The position numbers and the translations under genes were made by a program. DNA of 64,000 nucleotides from Acidobacteriota bacterium (GTDB lineage Bacteria; Acidobacteriota; Holophagae; Holophagales; Holophagaceae), in NCBI GenBank assembly GCA_021794095.1, contig JAJYRN010000008.1:1-64000 (forward strand), given 5' to 3'. Positions 11,181 through 16,706 of the stretch are shown piece by piece (position 1 is the stretch's first letter; each line of letters opens with the position of its first letter). Below the pieces are notes generated by a model that was not told where the DNA came from, ran no database searches, and saw only the letters and a list, made by a program, of their open reading frames with translations.

Positions 11181-11213
11181 GTCGTTCCTGCGTTTCCGCA
11201 GGGACGGCTTTTT
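11181..11213 (+). terminator. Intrinsic terminator upstream of the aminotransferase gene
   Basis: GTCGTTCCTGC pairs with GCAGGGACGGC (two wobble pairs) around the loop GTTTCC and is followed by TTTTT. It lies 253 bp after the proC stop but only 39 bp before the aminotransferase GTG. It may end proC transcription. Its nearness to the next gene also allows a leader or attenuator role, as seen in front of proC. Confidence 0.75.
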
Positions 11214-11252: not shown

Positions 11253-12566
11253 GTGTCCACCCTGCTGCTGTCTTCCGAGACGCCTGCCTTTGCTGTACCT
11301 GAAGCGAACCTCATCCCCGCGAGCGACCACCTGGGCCGCCTGGCACCCATCCCGCCCTCCCGGATGTTCCTCATCAACAAATCGCTGAAGGTGTTCCAGC
11401 AGAAGCAGCCTGGCGTGCCGGTCTTCGACGCCAGCCAGGGCGACGGCGGCGCCTCCCTGCCCGGCGTGCCCGAGGCCCTGCTGGACCGCGCCTTTGAGCT
11501 GCAGAAGCAGCATGGCACCGCCTACGACATGCCCTTCGGCACCGAGGCCTACCGCAAGGCCGTGGCCGAGACCTACTGGAAGCTGGACCCCGCCACGGGC
11601 TGGGGGCCGGGCAACGTCATCGGCACCCAGGGCGGCCGCGACGGCCTGCAGAAGGCCTACCAGGCCATGCTGGCGCTGGGGCATGGCCGCCAGGGCGATG
11701 TGGTCGTCGTCAGCCGCGTGCCCTGGATCAGCTACAACTGGGGCCCCTACGGCGTGGGCGCCAACGTCATGTGGGCCCCCGGTCGGCCCGAGGAAGGCTG
11801 GGCCTACAGCGAGGACGGCCTCCGCGCCTGCGTGGCGGAAGCCGCCCGGCATGGCCGCAAGGTGGCCGGCCTCGTCATCACCAGCCCCGACAACCCCACG
11901 GGCCAGACGCTCACCCTGGACCGCCAGATCACCCTGGCGAAGGCGGCCCTGGAAGCGGGCGTGGCCTTCGTCCTCTTCGACTGGATGTACCACGTCGTCA
12001 GCGACCACGAGCCCTACGACGTGAACGCCCTGCTGAAGGCCTTCGAGCCCGCCCAGCGGGAGCGCCTGATGGTGCTGGATGGCATCACCAAGAGCCTCGG
12101 CGGTTCCAACATCCGCAATTGCCACCTGCTGGCGGCGGAATCCGTGGTGAAGGTGATCGTGGCCCAGGCCTCGCACACCGTGATCCCCTCCTTCTTCAGC
12201 TTGGCCGTGGCCATGGCCGCCTATGAGAAGGGGATCAAGGAGGCCGCTGCGCCCATCGTGGGGCCCACCCACGCCAGCCGGGCCTGGCTGCGTGGCTTCC
12301 TGAAGGAGCAGGGCCTGCGCCACATCCTGGGCCAGGGCTACTACGCCTTCCTCCATGTGGGCGATGCCCTGAAGGCCAAGGGCTGGGCCGATTCCGAGCC
12401 CCTGGGCCAGCACCTCGCCGAGGAGGTGGGCGTGGCTGTCGTGCCCGGCGCCTTCTTCAGCCCCTACGGCGCCGAGTGGATCCGCTTCTCCTACGCCACC
12501 CCCCCCGAGCGCACCCAGGGTGCCGCCGAACGCCTCGTGACGGCGCTCAAGGCCCTGCAACAGTGA
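11253..12566 (+). CDS. PLP-dependent class I/II aminotransferase
   Basis: A 437-residue fold-type I aminotransferase. The PLP-binding lysine is probably Lys280 in LDGITKSLGGSN. Other family marks are the TSPDNPTGQ loop, the FDWMYH segment with the cofactor-pairing Asp, and a C-terminal IRFSYA segment with the carboxylate-binding Arg. Substrate cannot be told from sequence. The GTG start has GGAGG 5 nt upstream. About 110 bp downstream on the same strand is the ligase-peptidase fusion, so the two may act on the same amino-acid or peptide product. That link is inference. Confidence 0.88.
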   Translation: MSTLLLSSETPAFAVPEANLIPASDHLGRLAPIPPSRMFLINKSLKVFQQKQPGVPVFDASQGDGGASLPGVPEALLDRAFELQKQHGTAYDMPFGTEAYRKAVAETYWKLDPATGWGPGNVIGTQGGRDGLQKAYQAMLALGHGRQGDVVVVSRVPWISYNWGPYGVGANVMWAPGRPEEGWAYSEDGLRACVAEAARHGRKVAGLVITSPDNPTGQTLTLDRQITLAKAALEAGVAFVLFDWMYHVVSDHEPYDVNALLKAFEPAQRERLMVLDGITKSLGGSNIRNCHLLAAESVVKVIVAQASHTVIPSFFSLAVAMAAYEKGIKEAAAPIVGPTHASRAWLRGFLKEQGLRHILGQGYYAFLHVGDALKAKGWADSEPLGQHLAEEVGVAVVPGAFFSPYGAEWIRFSYATPPERTQGAAERLVTALKALQQ

Positions 12567-12574
12567 AAAAGATT

Positions 12575-12640
12575 CACCACGAAGAACATCTGTCTCACGG
12601 CCTTCTCGCCTTCCTTCGTGGTCTTCGCGTCTTCGTGGTT
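12575..12640. repeat. CACCACGAAG inverted-repeat element
   Basis: CACCACGAAG at 12575 is matched in inverted form by CTTCGTGGT at 12614 and CTTCGTGGTT at 12631, with the related CTTCGCGT between them. It occupies most of the gap between the aminotransferase and fusion genes. Similar CTTCGTGG-rich intergenic stretches occur in many high-GC bacteria. It could form a hairpin in the transcript; function unknown. Confidence 0.5.
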
Positions 12641-12676
12641 CGGTCTTCATTCCTTGCGGTTTGATCCGGAGTGCCC

Positions 12677-15490
12677 GTGTTTGATCTGAATGCCTTCGTG
12701 GAGAAGTTCACCCTGGCGCGCCAGACGGCGCTGGAGACGCGCCCGGCGGGCGGGCTCTGCGGGCTGGAGCTGGAGTGGAACCTCATGGATTCGCAGTTCC
12801 GGCCGCTGCTCACCGTGGGCACGGGACCGGACCGCATGTCCTTCGTGGACCACCTGCGCGCGAAGGTGCTGGCGCCCTGGACGGAGCCCTATCACCAGCT
12901 GGAGGTCTTCCACTGGATGATCGAGTGGGTGACGCGGCCCTACCACACGCCGAAGGGCACCATCTACGAAGGCCGCCTGCTGGAGGCGGAGCTCATCAAC
13001 GCCCTGGACCGAGATGGCCGGACCTTCGGAGAACCCCTCTACTACTGGCACGGGAACCTGCTCGTCCTGCCGGAGATCGGCCCCGACTGCGTGCCGGAGT
13101 CCTGGCACCTGGCCAAGCGCCGCTACCTCCAGCGCTGCGTGGAGCTCTATGGCACCGAGCTGGCCACGGCGGGCACCCATTCCAACCTGAGCCTGCCCGA
13201 ACCCATGCTGGCCTGGGACTTCATGCACCTGCCCGCCACCGAGCGCGGCGACCGCCACCTGGACGACTACAAGAACCAGGTCTACATCACCGCCACCCGG
13301 CTCATGCGGGCCTTCGCGGCCCTCTTCATCGCCACCAGCGCCAGCACACCGATGCAGGCCTCCACAGAAGGCGGGAAGCCCGTGGTGCGGCTCACGCCCT
13401 TCGAATCCGTGCGCAACCTCACCTTCCCGAACCCGCCCGCCCTCGATGTGCCGGACCTCAACCGCAGCCACCCGGACTACCTGCGGCTGTCCTACGACCT
13501 GGTACGCCGCGGCGTGCGCTTCGGCAACAACAACTGGATCCCCGTGCGCGCCCGCTCGCAAGCAGAGCCCGTGGAGCGCCTCATCCAGGTCACCAGCGAC
13601 CAGCTCCACGACATCTACGCCCGGGGCCTCTTCGCCGCCGGCGAGACGCACAACGTCGAGGACATGGCCGCCCAGATCGAGCGGCAGAACCTCTTCGCCC
13701 GCATTGACCTGCCCATGGCCCGCGTGGAGGTCCGCACGGACGACCCCGGCCACGCGCTGGCCCTGGACGTGGCGAACCTCACCCTGAAGCACCTCTTGCT
13801 GCTGCGGTTCTACGGCGATCCGGACTTCGCCCGGGGCTTCCGTTACGACGCTGAGGACATCAGCCGCGCCCGTCGCAACGAAGACGTGGCCGCCCGGGAA
13901 GGCCTGCGCGCCGTCATCGAGGATCCCCTCACGGCCAAGCCCGTGGCCATGCGCACCTTCCTCGCCTGGACGCTCGACCAGCTCCGGCCCCTGGCGGAGG
14001 CCCTCGGGTTCTGGGAGGATCTGGCGCCCCTCGTCGAGATGGCCGCCGGCGCCCCCAGCACCGCCGAGCGCATGCGCGCTCGGCTGAAGGCCGACCTCAA
14101 GGGCTCGGACCTCGTCCCGCCCGAGCTCCTGGCCCGGCTGGCGGAGGAGCGCCAGGCCCGCGTGGCCAGCGAAGTCGAAGCCCTCACCGGAAACCTCGCC
14201 ACCCTCGGCGCCGAAGAGGACAAGCTCCAGGACTTCCTCGAGCGGGCCCGGGACGAGGTCTCCCTGGACGCCCGCGCCCCCATCCGCTTCCAGCCCCGGC
14301 CTGAGGCCCTGGTGGAAACGGAGTACGCCGACAAGACGGCCGAGATCCTGGCCCTGTCCCAGCGCCTCATCCGCATCCCATCCGTCACCGCCTGTCCCGA
14401 GGAGCGCCTCGCCGAGGTCCGCCGGGCCGGCACCTTCATCCACGACTACCTGCGCAACCACGGCGTGCCCGTCCGCACCTTCGACGGGGCCACCTTCCCG
14501 GCCCTGCTGGCCCACTTCCCGCGCCAGGAGCAGGCCCCGGCCATGCTCTGCGGCCACTTCGACGTGGTGGCGCCGGAGCCCGACGACAGCCAGTTCGAGC
14601 CGAAGGTCGAGGGCGACTACCTCTGGGGCCGCGGCGCCGCGGACATGAAGACGGTGCTGGCCACCTACCTCGTGTGGATGAAGGACACGCTGAAGAAGGG
14701 CGCCCCCTATCCGCCCGTGAACCTGCTGATGGTCGGCAACGAGGAGAACGGCGAGCTGGAGCCCATGGGCACGCCCCACGTGCTGGCGCGACTGAAGGAG
14801 GAATCCGGCTACGCACCTTCCTTCTTCGTGGCCGGAGAGCGCACGGGCGAGAAGGGCACGGAACTCTGGGGCGAGGTCTGCACCCAGAACCGGGGTGTGC
14901 TGCGCTTCGAGCTGGTGGCCACGGGCACCCGCGGCCACAGCGGCCTGGCGGGTGGTCCCGACCTCATGGAGCGCCTGCTCGGCGCCCGGGAGGCCCTGCG
15001 CGAGCTCTTCCCGAAACACCTCACCCTCAAGGGCGAGAACGGCTGGCAGTCCCTGGCCCGCTTCGCCTACATCCAGGTGGGCACGCCCGGCGTCTACAAC
15101 ATCACCCCCGACCATGGCAGCCTGGGCGTGGAGATCCGCCCCATCCCCCAGGATGACGTCTCGAAGCTGCGCGCGGAGATCGAGGCCCTGGCCGCCGAGC
15201 GGGGCCTGGAGCTGGTGCCCTCCGCCTGGGAGCCCGGCGTGGCCTGCGATCCCGACAACCCGTATCTGAAGGCGCTCCTGGCGGGCATCGTCGCCGCCGG
15301 AGGCGATGCCCCCATGGGCCGCAAGGGGGCCGGCACCTCCGCCCGCTTCGCGCCCGGCGGCCAGGCCGTCGTCTGGGGCCAGAGCGGCATCGGCCCCCAC
15401 GCCAAGGGCGAGCGCCACTACATCCCCAGCATCGAGCCCTACTACCGGGCCCTGGAGGCGTTTGGACAGGCGCTGTCGCGCCTTCCCTAG
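12677..15490 (+). CDS. Fusion of a GCS2-type ligase and an M20 metallopeptidase
   Basis: About 937 residues joining two enzymes. Residues 1-500 resemble glutamate-cysteine ligase type 2 proteins: GLELEWNLMD, HQLEVFHWMIEW, GTHSNLSLPEP and FGNNNWIP. Residues 550-937 are a complete M20 (ArgE/DapE/CPG2) peptidase with metal ligands His627 (GHFDVV), Asp656 (GRGAADMK), Glu689-Glu690 (NEENGE) and His914. The first half would form an amide or gamma-glutamyl-type bond with ATP; the second would hydrolyse one. GTG 12677 is preferred over GTG 12671 because GGAG lies 5 nt before it. Its stop overlaps that of the convergent glycerate kinase gene. Substrates are unknown. Confidence 0.8.
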   Translation: MFDLNAFVEKFTLARQTALETRPAGGLCGLELEWNLMDSQFRPLLTVGTGPDRMSFVDHLRAKVLAPWTEPYHQLEVFHWMIEWVTRPYHTPKGTIYEGRLLEAELINALDRDGRTFGEPLYYWHGNLLVLPEIGPDCVPESWHLAKRRYLQRCVELYGTELATAGTHSNLSLPEPMLAWDFMHLPATERGDRHLDDYKNQVYITATRLMRAFAALFIATSASTPMQASTEGGKPVVRLTPFESVRNLTFPNPPALDVPDLNRSHPDYLRLSYDLVRRGVRFGNNNWIPVRARSQAEPVERLIQVTSDQLHDIYARGLFAAGETHNVEDMAAQIERQNLFARIDLPMARVEVRTDDPGHALALDVANLTLKHLLLLRFYGDPDFARGFRYDAEDISRARRNEDVAAREGLRAVIEDPLTAKPVAMRTFLAWTLDQLRPLAEALGFWEDLAPLVEMAAGAPSTAERMRARLKADLKGSDLVPPELLARLAEERQARVASEVEALTGNLATLGAEEDKLQDFLERARDEVSLDARAPIRFQPRPEALVETEYADKTAEILALSQRLIRIPSVTACPEERLAEVRRAGTFIHDYLRNHGVPVRTFDGATFPALLAHFPRQEQAPAMLCGHFDVVAPEPDDSQFEPKVEGDYLWGRGAADMKTVLATYLVWMKDTLKKGAPYPPVNLLMVGNEENGELEPMGTPHVLARLKEESGYAPSFFVAGERTGEKGTELWGEVCTQNRGVLRFELVATGTRGHSGLAGGPDLMERLLGAREALRELFPKHLTLKGENGWQSLARFAYIQVGTPGVYNITPDHGSLGVEIRPIPQDDVSKLRAEIEALAAERGLELVPSAWEPGVACDPDNPYLKALLAGIVAAGGDAPMGRKGAGTSARFAPGGQAVVWGQSGIGPHAKGERHYIPSIEPYYRALEAFGQALSRLP

Positions 15491-16638
15491 GAGCGTGCCC
15501 CGAGGCGCATGCCGATGCTGACCAGTCGCGCGGCGCGCCGGGCGGCCGACTCCAGCAGCGGGGCCGCATTGGCCATGCAGGTCGCGAGGTCCAGGGGCCC
15601 AGGAGGAACCGACGCCAGCGCCCCCACGCCAAGGGTCAGGAGGTTCTCCGCGCCTTCCCCCAGGCTCCCGCTCAGACAGACCACAGGGATCCCGTGGCGA
15701 CGGGCCGCCGCCGCCACGCCGAGGGGCGCCTTGCCCAGGGCGGTCTGGACATCCGTGCGGCCTTCGCCGGTGAAGACCAGATCCACCCCGCGCAGCCGGG
15801 CCTCGAAGGCCGAGGCCTCCAAGAGAAGCTCCACCCCGGGGCGGAGCTGGGCCCGGGTGAACCAGAGCAATCCCGCCCCGAGGCCCCCCGCCGCGCCCGC
15901 ACCGGGAAGATCCGCCACCTCCCGGCCCGTGTCCCTGGAAACGATGCGGGCGAGGTTGCTGAGGGCCGCGTCCAGTTCCTTCACCCCTTCTGGAGCCAGG
16001 CCTTTCTGGGGTCCGAACACCGCGGTGGCGCCCCGCGGCCCGCAAAGGGGGCTGTCCACATCCGATGCCACGAGGAGCTCCGTCGCCCGCAGGCGCGGGT
16101 CCAGCCCGCTGGCATCCACCCGCGCCAGCCGGGCCAGGGCGGCGCCGCCCTCGGGCAAGTCCCGCCCCTCCGCATCCAGGAGGCGCGCGCCCAGGGCCCG
16201 GGCGAACCCCGCGCCACCGTCGTTGGTGCCGGAGCCGCCCAGACCCAGGAGGATGCGTCGGAACCCGGCATCGAGGGCCGCTTTCACCAGTTCTCCCGTC
16301 CCGAAGGTGCTCGCCCGGCGCGGATCCCGGCACCCCTCCGGCACGAGGCCGAGCCCCGAGGCTGCGGCAGCCTCGATCACGGCGGTGCGCCCATCACCGA
16401 GCACACCCCAGACGGCCTCCACGGGATCGCCCAGGGGCCCGCGCACCCGGGTACAGCGGGACGTTCCGCCTGTGGCCGCCAGCAGCGCATCCACGGTGCC
16501 CTCACCGCCATCCGCCACGGGAAGCTCCAGGATCTCCGCGTCAGGGAATACGGTCCGGAGGCCCCGGGCCATGACGCGGGCGGCCTCGGCCGCCGTCAGG
16601 CTGCCCTTGAAGGAATCTGGAGCGACGAGGAAGCGCAT
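15487..16638 (-). CDS. Glycerate 2-kinase
   Basis: A 383-residue member of the GlxK/GarK glycerate kinase family, which phosphorylates D-glycerate to 2-phosphoglycerate. The N-terminus MRFLVAPDSFKGSLTA is the family signature. Further marks are VADGGEGT, GLGGSGTNDGGAG, VASDVDSPLCG.RGA and FTGEGRTD.QT. ATG 16638 is chosen because it fits the family N-terminus; GTG 16647 is an alternative. The gene is divergent from the barrel protein at 16707 and convergent with the fusion gene, sharing a 4-nt overlap of stop codons (CTAG). Confidence 0.92.
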   Translation of the reverse strand: MRFLVAPDSFKGSLTAAEAARVMARGLRTVFPDAEILELPVADGGEGTVDALLAATGGTSRCTRVRGPLGDPVEAVWGVLGDGRTAVIEAAAASGLGLVPEGCRDPRRASTFGTGELVKAALDAGFRRILLGLGGSGTNDGGAGFARALGARLLDAEGRDLPEGGAALARLARVDASGLDPRLRATELLVASDVDSPLCGPRGATAVFGPQKGLAPEGVKELDAALSNLARIVSRDTGREVADLPGAGAAGGLGAGLLWFTRAQLRPGVELLLEASAFEARLRGVDLVFTGEGRTDVQTALGKAPLGVAAAARRHGIPVVCLSGSLGEGAENLLTLGVGALASVPPGPLDLATCMANAAPLLESAARRAARLVSIGMRLGARS

Positions 16639-16706
16639 GGAGATCACCGGTGGTTCCCGCCATCATAGGCCGTTCCCCCGCCTTGCCTTGCCGCCTGAAA
16701 GGATCC

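Follow-up and report, generated by a model that had tools for sequence, protein, structure and literature searches.

The 64,000-nucleotide stretch of DNA analysed here (positions 1 to 64,000 of contig JAJYRN010000008.1, assembly GCA_021794095.1; 'the window') comes from a bacterium of the family Holophagaceae (Acidobacteriota). It carries a gene for a class I/II aminotransferase and, directly downstream on the same strand, a gene in which a ligase of the GCS2 fold is joined to an M20 metallohydrolase. The fusion gene is a single open frame at 12677-15490 (+), comprising 937 codons and a stop codon (15488-15490). Translation may start at either of two in-frame GTG codons, 12671 or 12677; the sequence GGAG (12668-12671) lies five bases before the second. 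The initial annotation of this locus had described one uninterrupted frame encoding a GCS2-like ligase and an M20 peptidase with complete metal ligands, and this is borne out by the frame, the predicted folds and the aligned ligands. It had missed the aminotransferase and, in related loci, a leader rich in threonine and asparagine codons. We tentatively suggest that the two genes form an amino-acid operon, which would cap, transaminate and uncap a metabolite of the aspartate family.

The window protein alone matches the GCS2 family below threshold (E 0.034, 13.9 bits; Pfam cut-off 21), whereas 13 of 27 relatives match it (best E 6.1e-6) and seven of the 27 match the GshA family. A profile built from 40 relatives weakly matched YbdK in the PDB (E 0.047), and hhalign to YbdK, residues 346-472, gave P 6e-6. 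Structures were compared with an AlphaFold model of the window protein (mean predicted local distance difference test score 81.5), and superpositions were scored as VIA-align Z values. Residues 25-493 superpose on 1tt4 (Z 28.5, root-mean-square deviation 3.0, more than 340 residues) and on YbdK itself (1r8g; Z 27.7, deviation 2.8 over 341 residues). The model thus settles the predicted fold of the N-terminal half as that of YbdK/GCS2.

Residues E27, E29, D60, E67, H150, N152, E328 and R330 of Escherichia coli GshA, which we take to be the metal and substrate ligands in the GshA structure, correspond to E31, E33, E76, E83, H168, N170, E351 and R353 of the window protein. None of the eight positions varies among 27 sequences, which come from Acidobacteriota, Chloroflexota and one Aminicenantes bacterium. 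An N-terminal half unrelated to GCS2 ligases, or one stripped of its active site, would have spoken against the annotation; the GCS2 fold was found and no ligand position is lost. With the YbdK/GCS2 family (PF04107; 1r8g, 1tt4) the half shares its whole fold, the G-x-E-x-E, D/E-x6-E and VEVR motifs and a C-terminal GL-x-I-DP-TG segment; it differs in its low identity (~18-19%), in the Pfam score, in having HxN for HxH and in its fusion to M20. With GshA, the glutamate-cysteine ligase of E. coli (PF04262), all ligand positions align, D60 being replaced by Glu, but the whole-profile match is poor (hhalign P 0.003) and carriers of the fusion mostly lack GshB. By analogy with these relatives the ligase half is assumed to prefer glutamate.

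The C-terminal half was identified directly by Pfam: PF01546 matches residues 623-928 (E 1.4e-16, 61.4 bits) and M20_dimer scores E 2.7e-5 (24.5 bits), both above cut-off. In the model, residues ~550-935 superpose on 2rb7 of Desulfovibrio (Z 35.9) and on DapE structures (Z ~33-35). Besides the metal ligands and the general base (Table 1), the half retains DapE residues R178 (R739 here), H193, N244 (N808) and R257 (R821). In M20 enzymes an Asn/Arg pair recognises the alpha-carboxylate on the leaving side; because this pair is kept, the half probably acts on an amino acid that bears an N-acyl or gamma-glutamyl group and has its alpha-carboxylate free. The half thus resembles M20 deacylases of the DapE/ArgE type in its fold and in its catalytic and alpha-carboxylate-binding residues, but it fails the DapE equivalog threshold (89.6 bits; cut-off 284) and is covalently joined to a ligase.

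The genome searches sampled species. They listed 80 relatives of the fusion, nearly all full-length and a few clipped by contig ends, in Geothrix (the genus of the window), other Acidobacteriota, Anaerolineales and other Chloroflexota, and an Aminicenantes bacterium. The spread of the fusion, a point raised by the annotation, covers at least three phyla. Identity to the window protein is 82-97% in most Holophagaceae, 77% in the most divergent of them, 57-68% in Anaerolineales and other Chloroflexota, and 61% in the Aminicenantes bacterium. Full-length recurrence at 57-97% identity, down to ~57-60% and in other phyla, excludes a chance or mis-assembled fusion. The ligase half occurs in 37 of 396 Acidobacteriota genomes, where the M20 half follows it in every distant copy examined that is not cut by a contig end, and in eight of 248 Anaerolineae genomes, always in open frames of at least 937 residues. 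A standalone ligase half was found in none of the 396 Acidobacteriota genomes, the 248 Anaerolineae genomes or 72,556 plasmids; a weak hit in genome G385 proved false; it ran on the strand opposite a gyrase/topoisomerase-A-like gene. In comparisons of Geothrix with near relatives, the ligase half has a ratio of non-synonymous to synonymous substitution rates (dN/dS) of 0.08-0.20 and the M20 half one of 0.09-0.31, with higher values in the linker (Table 1). Both halves are under purifying selection, and the fusion is an old, stable unit. In the open-licence literature searched we found no paper on it.

When all open reading frames (ORFs) of at least 90 residues in 81 loci were clustered, one other gene was as constant as the fusion. 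A class I/II aminotransferase of 430-440 residues lies directly upstream, on the same strand, in 72 of the 81 loci; six of the remaining nine end at or near a contig edge, and three (L043, L060 and L066) have another gene upstream. Because of this constancy we regard transaminase plus ligase-hydrolase as the real unit. The aminotransferase is present in all 25 good Geothrix genomes. Its residues K280, N214, D243, Y246, R288 and R411 are invariant, and include the Schiff-base lysine (K280) and the arginine expected to bind the alpha-carboxylate (R411). The modelled fold is nearest to aspartate and prephenate aminotransferases (aspartate aminotransferase 1j32, Z 39.8). Pairwise distances of the ligase half, the M20 half and the aminotransferase correlate at 0.87-0.93 (21 loci, Mantel p 0.001), to which shared ancestry contributes. 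The proC gene was considered as a further operon partner and rejected, since the aminotransferase has different upstream neighbours in different loci and a hairpin terminator lies in between. The remaining neighbours are not constant either; in L031 and L073 the gene after the fusion encodes a LysE-type exporter.

Almost every carrier has a hairpin with a T run in front of the aminotransferase gene, whereas the genes beyond it are not the same from locus to locus. In Anaerolineales the leader is complete: TTGACG-TATCCT, which resembles a promoter, is followed within a few bases by the ATG of an ORF of 28-41 codons, and then comes the hairpin. An example, from L044, is MFSQFVFDTNNTNRTTRTHAVTRRWYSSGEHEQVYSS. 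Over 28 Chloroflexota loci the first 24 residues of this ORF are 22% Thr and 14% Asn (5.0 and 3.8 times background), whereas Lys, Ala and Ser stand at 0.3, 0.38 and 0.76 of background. Thr and Asn together account for a share of 0.36 in the coding frame; the two other frames give 0.06 and 0.03, and Markov controls 0.14. The codons are mixed for both amino acids (ACT 47, ACC 71, ACA 12, ACG 19; AAT 70, AAC 23).

In a scan of all column pairs in the 28 aligned leaders, the two best helices were a terminator (148-156:168-176) and an antiterminator (67-75:148-156), which share the arm 148-156 and so are mutually exclusive. The terminator helix is 99% paired, with compensatory changes in three pairs; the antiterminator helix is 92% paired, against 29-50% when it is slid. 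The region of the Thr and Asn codons can pair further with the antiterminator arm (mean 8.6 base pairs; 6.9 in shuffles). Leader ORF and hairpin occur together before 24 of 34 aminotransferase starts, but the combination is absent from all 42 fusion starts and from the 285 other genes of the same loci; since the loci are related, a p value for 24/34 versus 0/285 is not to be taken literally. In Geothrix a hairpin, close behind a promoter-like sequence, precedes the aminotransferase in 23 of 30 copies (20 of 276 other starts).

Having both the control-codon ORF and the competing hairpins, the Anaerolineales leader is a candidate classical attenuator, an RNA switch that appears, from its sequence, to sense threonine and asparagine. 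Like attenuators of the thrL type it combines a short ORF containing runs of control codons, rival antiterminator and terminator hairpins and a U run. Unlike them it pairs Thr with Asn instead of Ile and lies before an aminotransferase and a ligase-hydrolase, and no Rfam family matched it. Around the window operon Rfam gave no riboswitch or T-box match, and in eight loci it returned tRNAs only. In the open-licence literature searched, no attenuator that combines Thr with Asn codons came to light. Leader-mediated control deduced from sequence can fail in experiment, as happened with ilvB of Streptomyces (PMC1262725).

Two known pathways share the logic that we propose for the operon, which has a different ligase. 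DapD, DapC and DapE cap, transaminate and uncap. In the LysW pathway a ligase (LysX), an aminotransferase (LysJ) and an M20 hydrolase (LysK) protect, transaminate and release, and the M20 half of the fusion resembles LysK (5xoy, Z 31). LysX, however, has the ATP-grasp fold, whereas the ligase here is of the GCS2 fold and the aminotransferase belongs to class I/II. No conserved small gene that might encode a LysW-type carrier stands beside the pair in the neighbourhood clusters, which comprised ORFs of at least 90 residues; the search for a carrier was confined to this neighbourhood.

By the same logic, the ligase half would spend ATP on forming an amide between an amino group and a carboxylate; to judge from its relatives, the latter is probably the gamma-carboxylate of glutamate. 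The capped keto acid or its parent would be the substrate of the aminotransferase, and the M20 half would hydrolyse the amide and release the amino acid. In Anaerolineales, the operon would be switched on when charged Thr or Asn tRNA is scarce: the ribosome would stall on the leader peptide and so leave the antiterminator free to form. Because the leader ties the Anaerolineales operon to the supply of Thr and Asn, the end product should belong to the aspartate family (Asp, Asn or Thr), and it is for this reason that we favour, with reserve, a cap-transaminate-uncap module in aspartate-family metabolism. The position-by-position conservation of both active sites, invariant over Acidobacteriota and Chloroflexota, supports this module, and so do the purifying selection, the correlated distances, the constant aminotransferase, N808 and R821, the leader and the LysE genes of L031 and L073. 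We infer the activity of both halves, the shared intermediate and the sense of the regulation. The initial annotation had suggested a protect-and-release cycle on an amino acid; the constant upstream aminotransferase and the Thr/Asn leader strengthen that idea, while glutamate as the cap, a substrate common to both halves and the identity of the product are conjecture. For the other version in the annotation, a peptide that is made and then trimmed, the analysis gave evidence neither way.

Several observations weigh against this reading. Most carriers have asparagine synthetase B (AsnB) and most have homoserine dehydrogenase, so the operon does not just make up for the lack of an Asn or Thr step; replacement of either enzyme is not supported as a rule. 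Carriage in only eight of the 248 Anaerolineae genomes is odd for a core biosynthetic route. The best curated profile of the aminotransferase is that of GntC, a cyclase, though at 97.3 bits against a cut-off of 415, a score that does not support a cyclase of that type. GntC is an enduracididine cyclase, dependent on pyridoxal phosphate (PLP) and related to aminotransferases (PMC10367076). Covariation in the antiterminator was not above that of column shuffles, because its arms hardly vary, so that its support comes from pairing frequency and the slide control. No Thr/Asn-rich leader ORF was seen in the Geothrix upstream sequences, which were read by eye.

A different use of the same enzymes would be a store of a dipeptide or gamma-glutamyl amino acid: the ligase would make the amide when the amino acid is plentiful, the M20 half would cut it when needed, and the aminotransferase would supply or recycle one amino acid. 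The joining of a ligase and a DapE-like amidohydrolase with intact sites in one chain agrees with this, as does the LysE exporter next door in two loci, and the scattered, accessory occurrence in Anaerolineae would suit a storage or solute cassette. We nevertheless consider a store rather unlikely: an attenuator that switches the operon on at low Thr or Asn fits synthesis or release better, and opposed activities in one polypeptide would need separate control, of which none was seen.

Thiol or conjugate chemistry, parallel to EgtA/EgtC/EgtE or to the processing of glutathione conjugates, appears very unlikely. The ligase would make a compound like glutamyl-cysteine, the hydrolase would remove the glutamyl group and the PLP enzyme would be a C-S lyase. 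The GshA-like motif set and a PLP enzyme beside ligase and hydrolase would suit such a scheme. Glutathione synthetase GshB (PF02955), however, is absent from all Geothrix-type carriers and from most others tested, which disfavours a role in glutathione metabolism; the PLP enzyme is nearest to the aspartate aminotransferase type by fold and profiles, the C-S lyase profile being matched only weakly and in one member; and a leader rich in Thr and Asn is at odds with a sulfur pathway.

Ribosome-targeting drugs can be sensed by short ORFs that contain stall-prone codons. Antibiotic-sensing upstream ORFs are the topic of PMC12121999. Here, stalling of the phenicol or oxazolidinone type at Thr codons might induce an operon that modifies or expels the drug. 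The exporter beside the operon in two loci would agree with this scheme, which is nevertheless highly improbable: Asn shows nearly the same enrichment as Thr, and Ala and Ser are under-represented, unlike in drug-stall contexts, and the enzymes look like those of amino-acid metabolism. Least probable of all is a variant of the lysine/diaminopimelate branch, with gamma-glutamyl protection in place of succinylation, the aminotransferase for DapC and the M20 half for DapE, since despite the same three-step logic, the DapE-like M20 half and the lack of DapL in Geothrix (TIGR03540 and TIGR03542 were above cut-off in none of 25 genomes, which also removes a DapL-type function), seven of eight Chloroflexota carriers tested lack a DapF match (E <= 1e-10) and Lys is rare in the leader.

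Taken singly, the parts of the operon are all of familiar kinds; their combination and the way it is controlled appear to be undescribed. A gene pair behind a leader that appears to sense Thr and Asn, as in Anaerolineales, points to an undescribed route for making an amino acid. The more far-reaching proposal is a new aspartate-family route that is complete in two genes, with an amide cap attached before transamination and detached after it by the same polypeptide, and with a ribosome-mediated attenuator that in Chloroflexota reads Thr and Asn codons together; in this full form we think it unlikely. Protecting-group logic in metabolism usually involves separate enzymes. A fixed fusion of capping and uncapping, inherited with one aminotransferase over at least three phyla, would offer a closed and testable cap-transaminate-uncap module, and the Thr/Asn leader an independent, experimentally cheap handle on the product of this enzyme family.

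Table 1. Positions of the operon and of its conserved elements in the window (residues are those of the fusion protein)
Feature	Position	Strand	Remarks
Terminator-like hairpin with T run, candidate attenuator	11181..11213	+	~40 bases before aminotransferase start
Class I/II aminotransferase, 437 residues, aspartate aminotransferase-like fold	11253..12566	+	PF00155, E 5e-24
GCS2-fold ligase fused to M20 metallohydrolase, 937 residues	12677..15490	+	frame open from GTG 12671
Ligase half, residues 1-493	12677..14155	+	structural match to YbdK spans residues 25-493
Ligase motif G29-L-E31-L-E33	12761..12775	+	aligned with GshA E27/E29, YbdK E17/E19; invariant
Ligase motif E76-x6-E83	12902..12925	+	aligned with GshA D60/E67, YbdK D53/E60; invariant
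Ligase motif GTHSN (H168, N170)	13172..13186	+	aligned with GshA H150/N152 (GVHYNFSLP); invariant
Ligase motif VEVR (E351, R353)	13724..13735	+	aligned with GshA E328/R330, YbdK E237/R239; invariant
Helical linker, residues 494-548	14156..14320	+	least constrained part, dN/dS 0.10-0.44
M20 hydrolase half, residues 549-937, DapE-like	14321..15487	+	profile and fold match
M20 metal ligands H627 and D629 (GHFDVV)	14555..14563	+	invariant; DapE H66/D68
M20 bridging ligand D656	14642..14644	+	invariant; DapE D99
M20 general base E689 and ligand E690	14741..14746	+	invariant; DapE D132/E133
M20 metal ligand E721	14837..14839	+	invariant; DapE E162
M20 metal ligand H908	15398..15400	+	invariant; DapE H348

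Some minor features were noted around the operon. Between the aminotransferase and the fusion, at 12614-12639 (+), lies CTTCGTGGTCTTCGCGTCTTCGTGGT, a copy of an interspersed repeat with 20 genomic copies (up to 3 mismatches; the reversed control gave none). A glycerate kinase gene (15487-16647, -) is convergent with the fusion and overlaps its stop codon by four bases. The genome of the window (G000, 99% complete) has no match for AsnB (E <= 1e-30) or homoserine dehydrogenase (E <= 1e-10), although the other Geothrix genomes tested have both; this may be an assembly gap or a real loss. Elsewhere, a small pair of opposite-strand genes (clusters c90/c91; L044:7220-7881, L034:7239-7900 (-), also beside the fusion in L038) sits between aminotransferase and fusion in some Anaerolineales and is possibly a toxin-antitoxin pair. 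In one Acidobacteriota genome (L103:231-3505) no aminotransferase lies upstream; a DNA methylase-like gene stands there instead, together with a large DGQHR-like gene, and the two may form a defence or modification element. A conserved ORF of ~120 residues (cluster c16; e.g. L076:5606-5995) occurs in 19 Anaerolineales loci, ~100-800 bases before the aminotransferase and in the same orientation.

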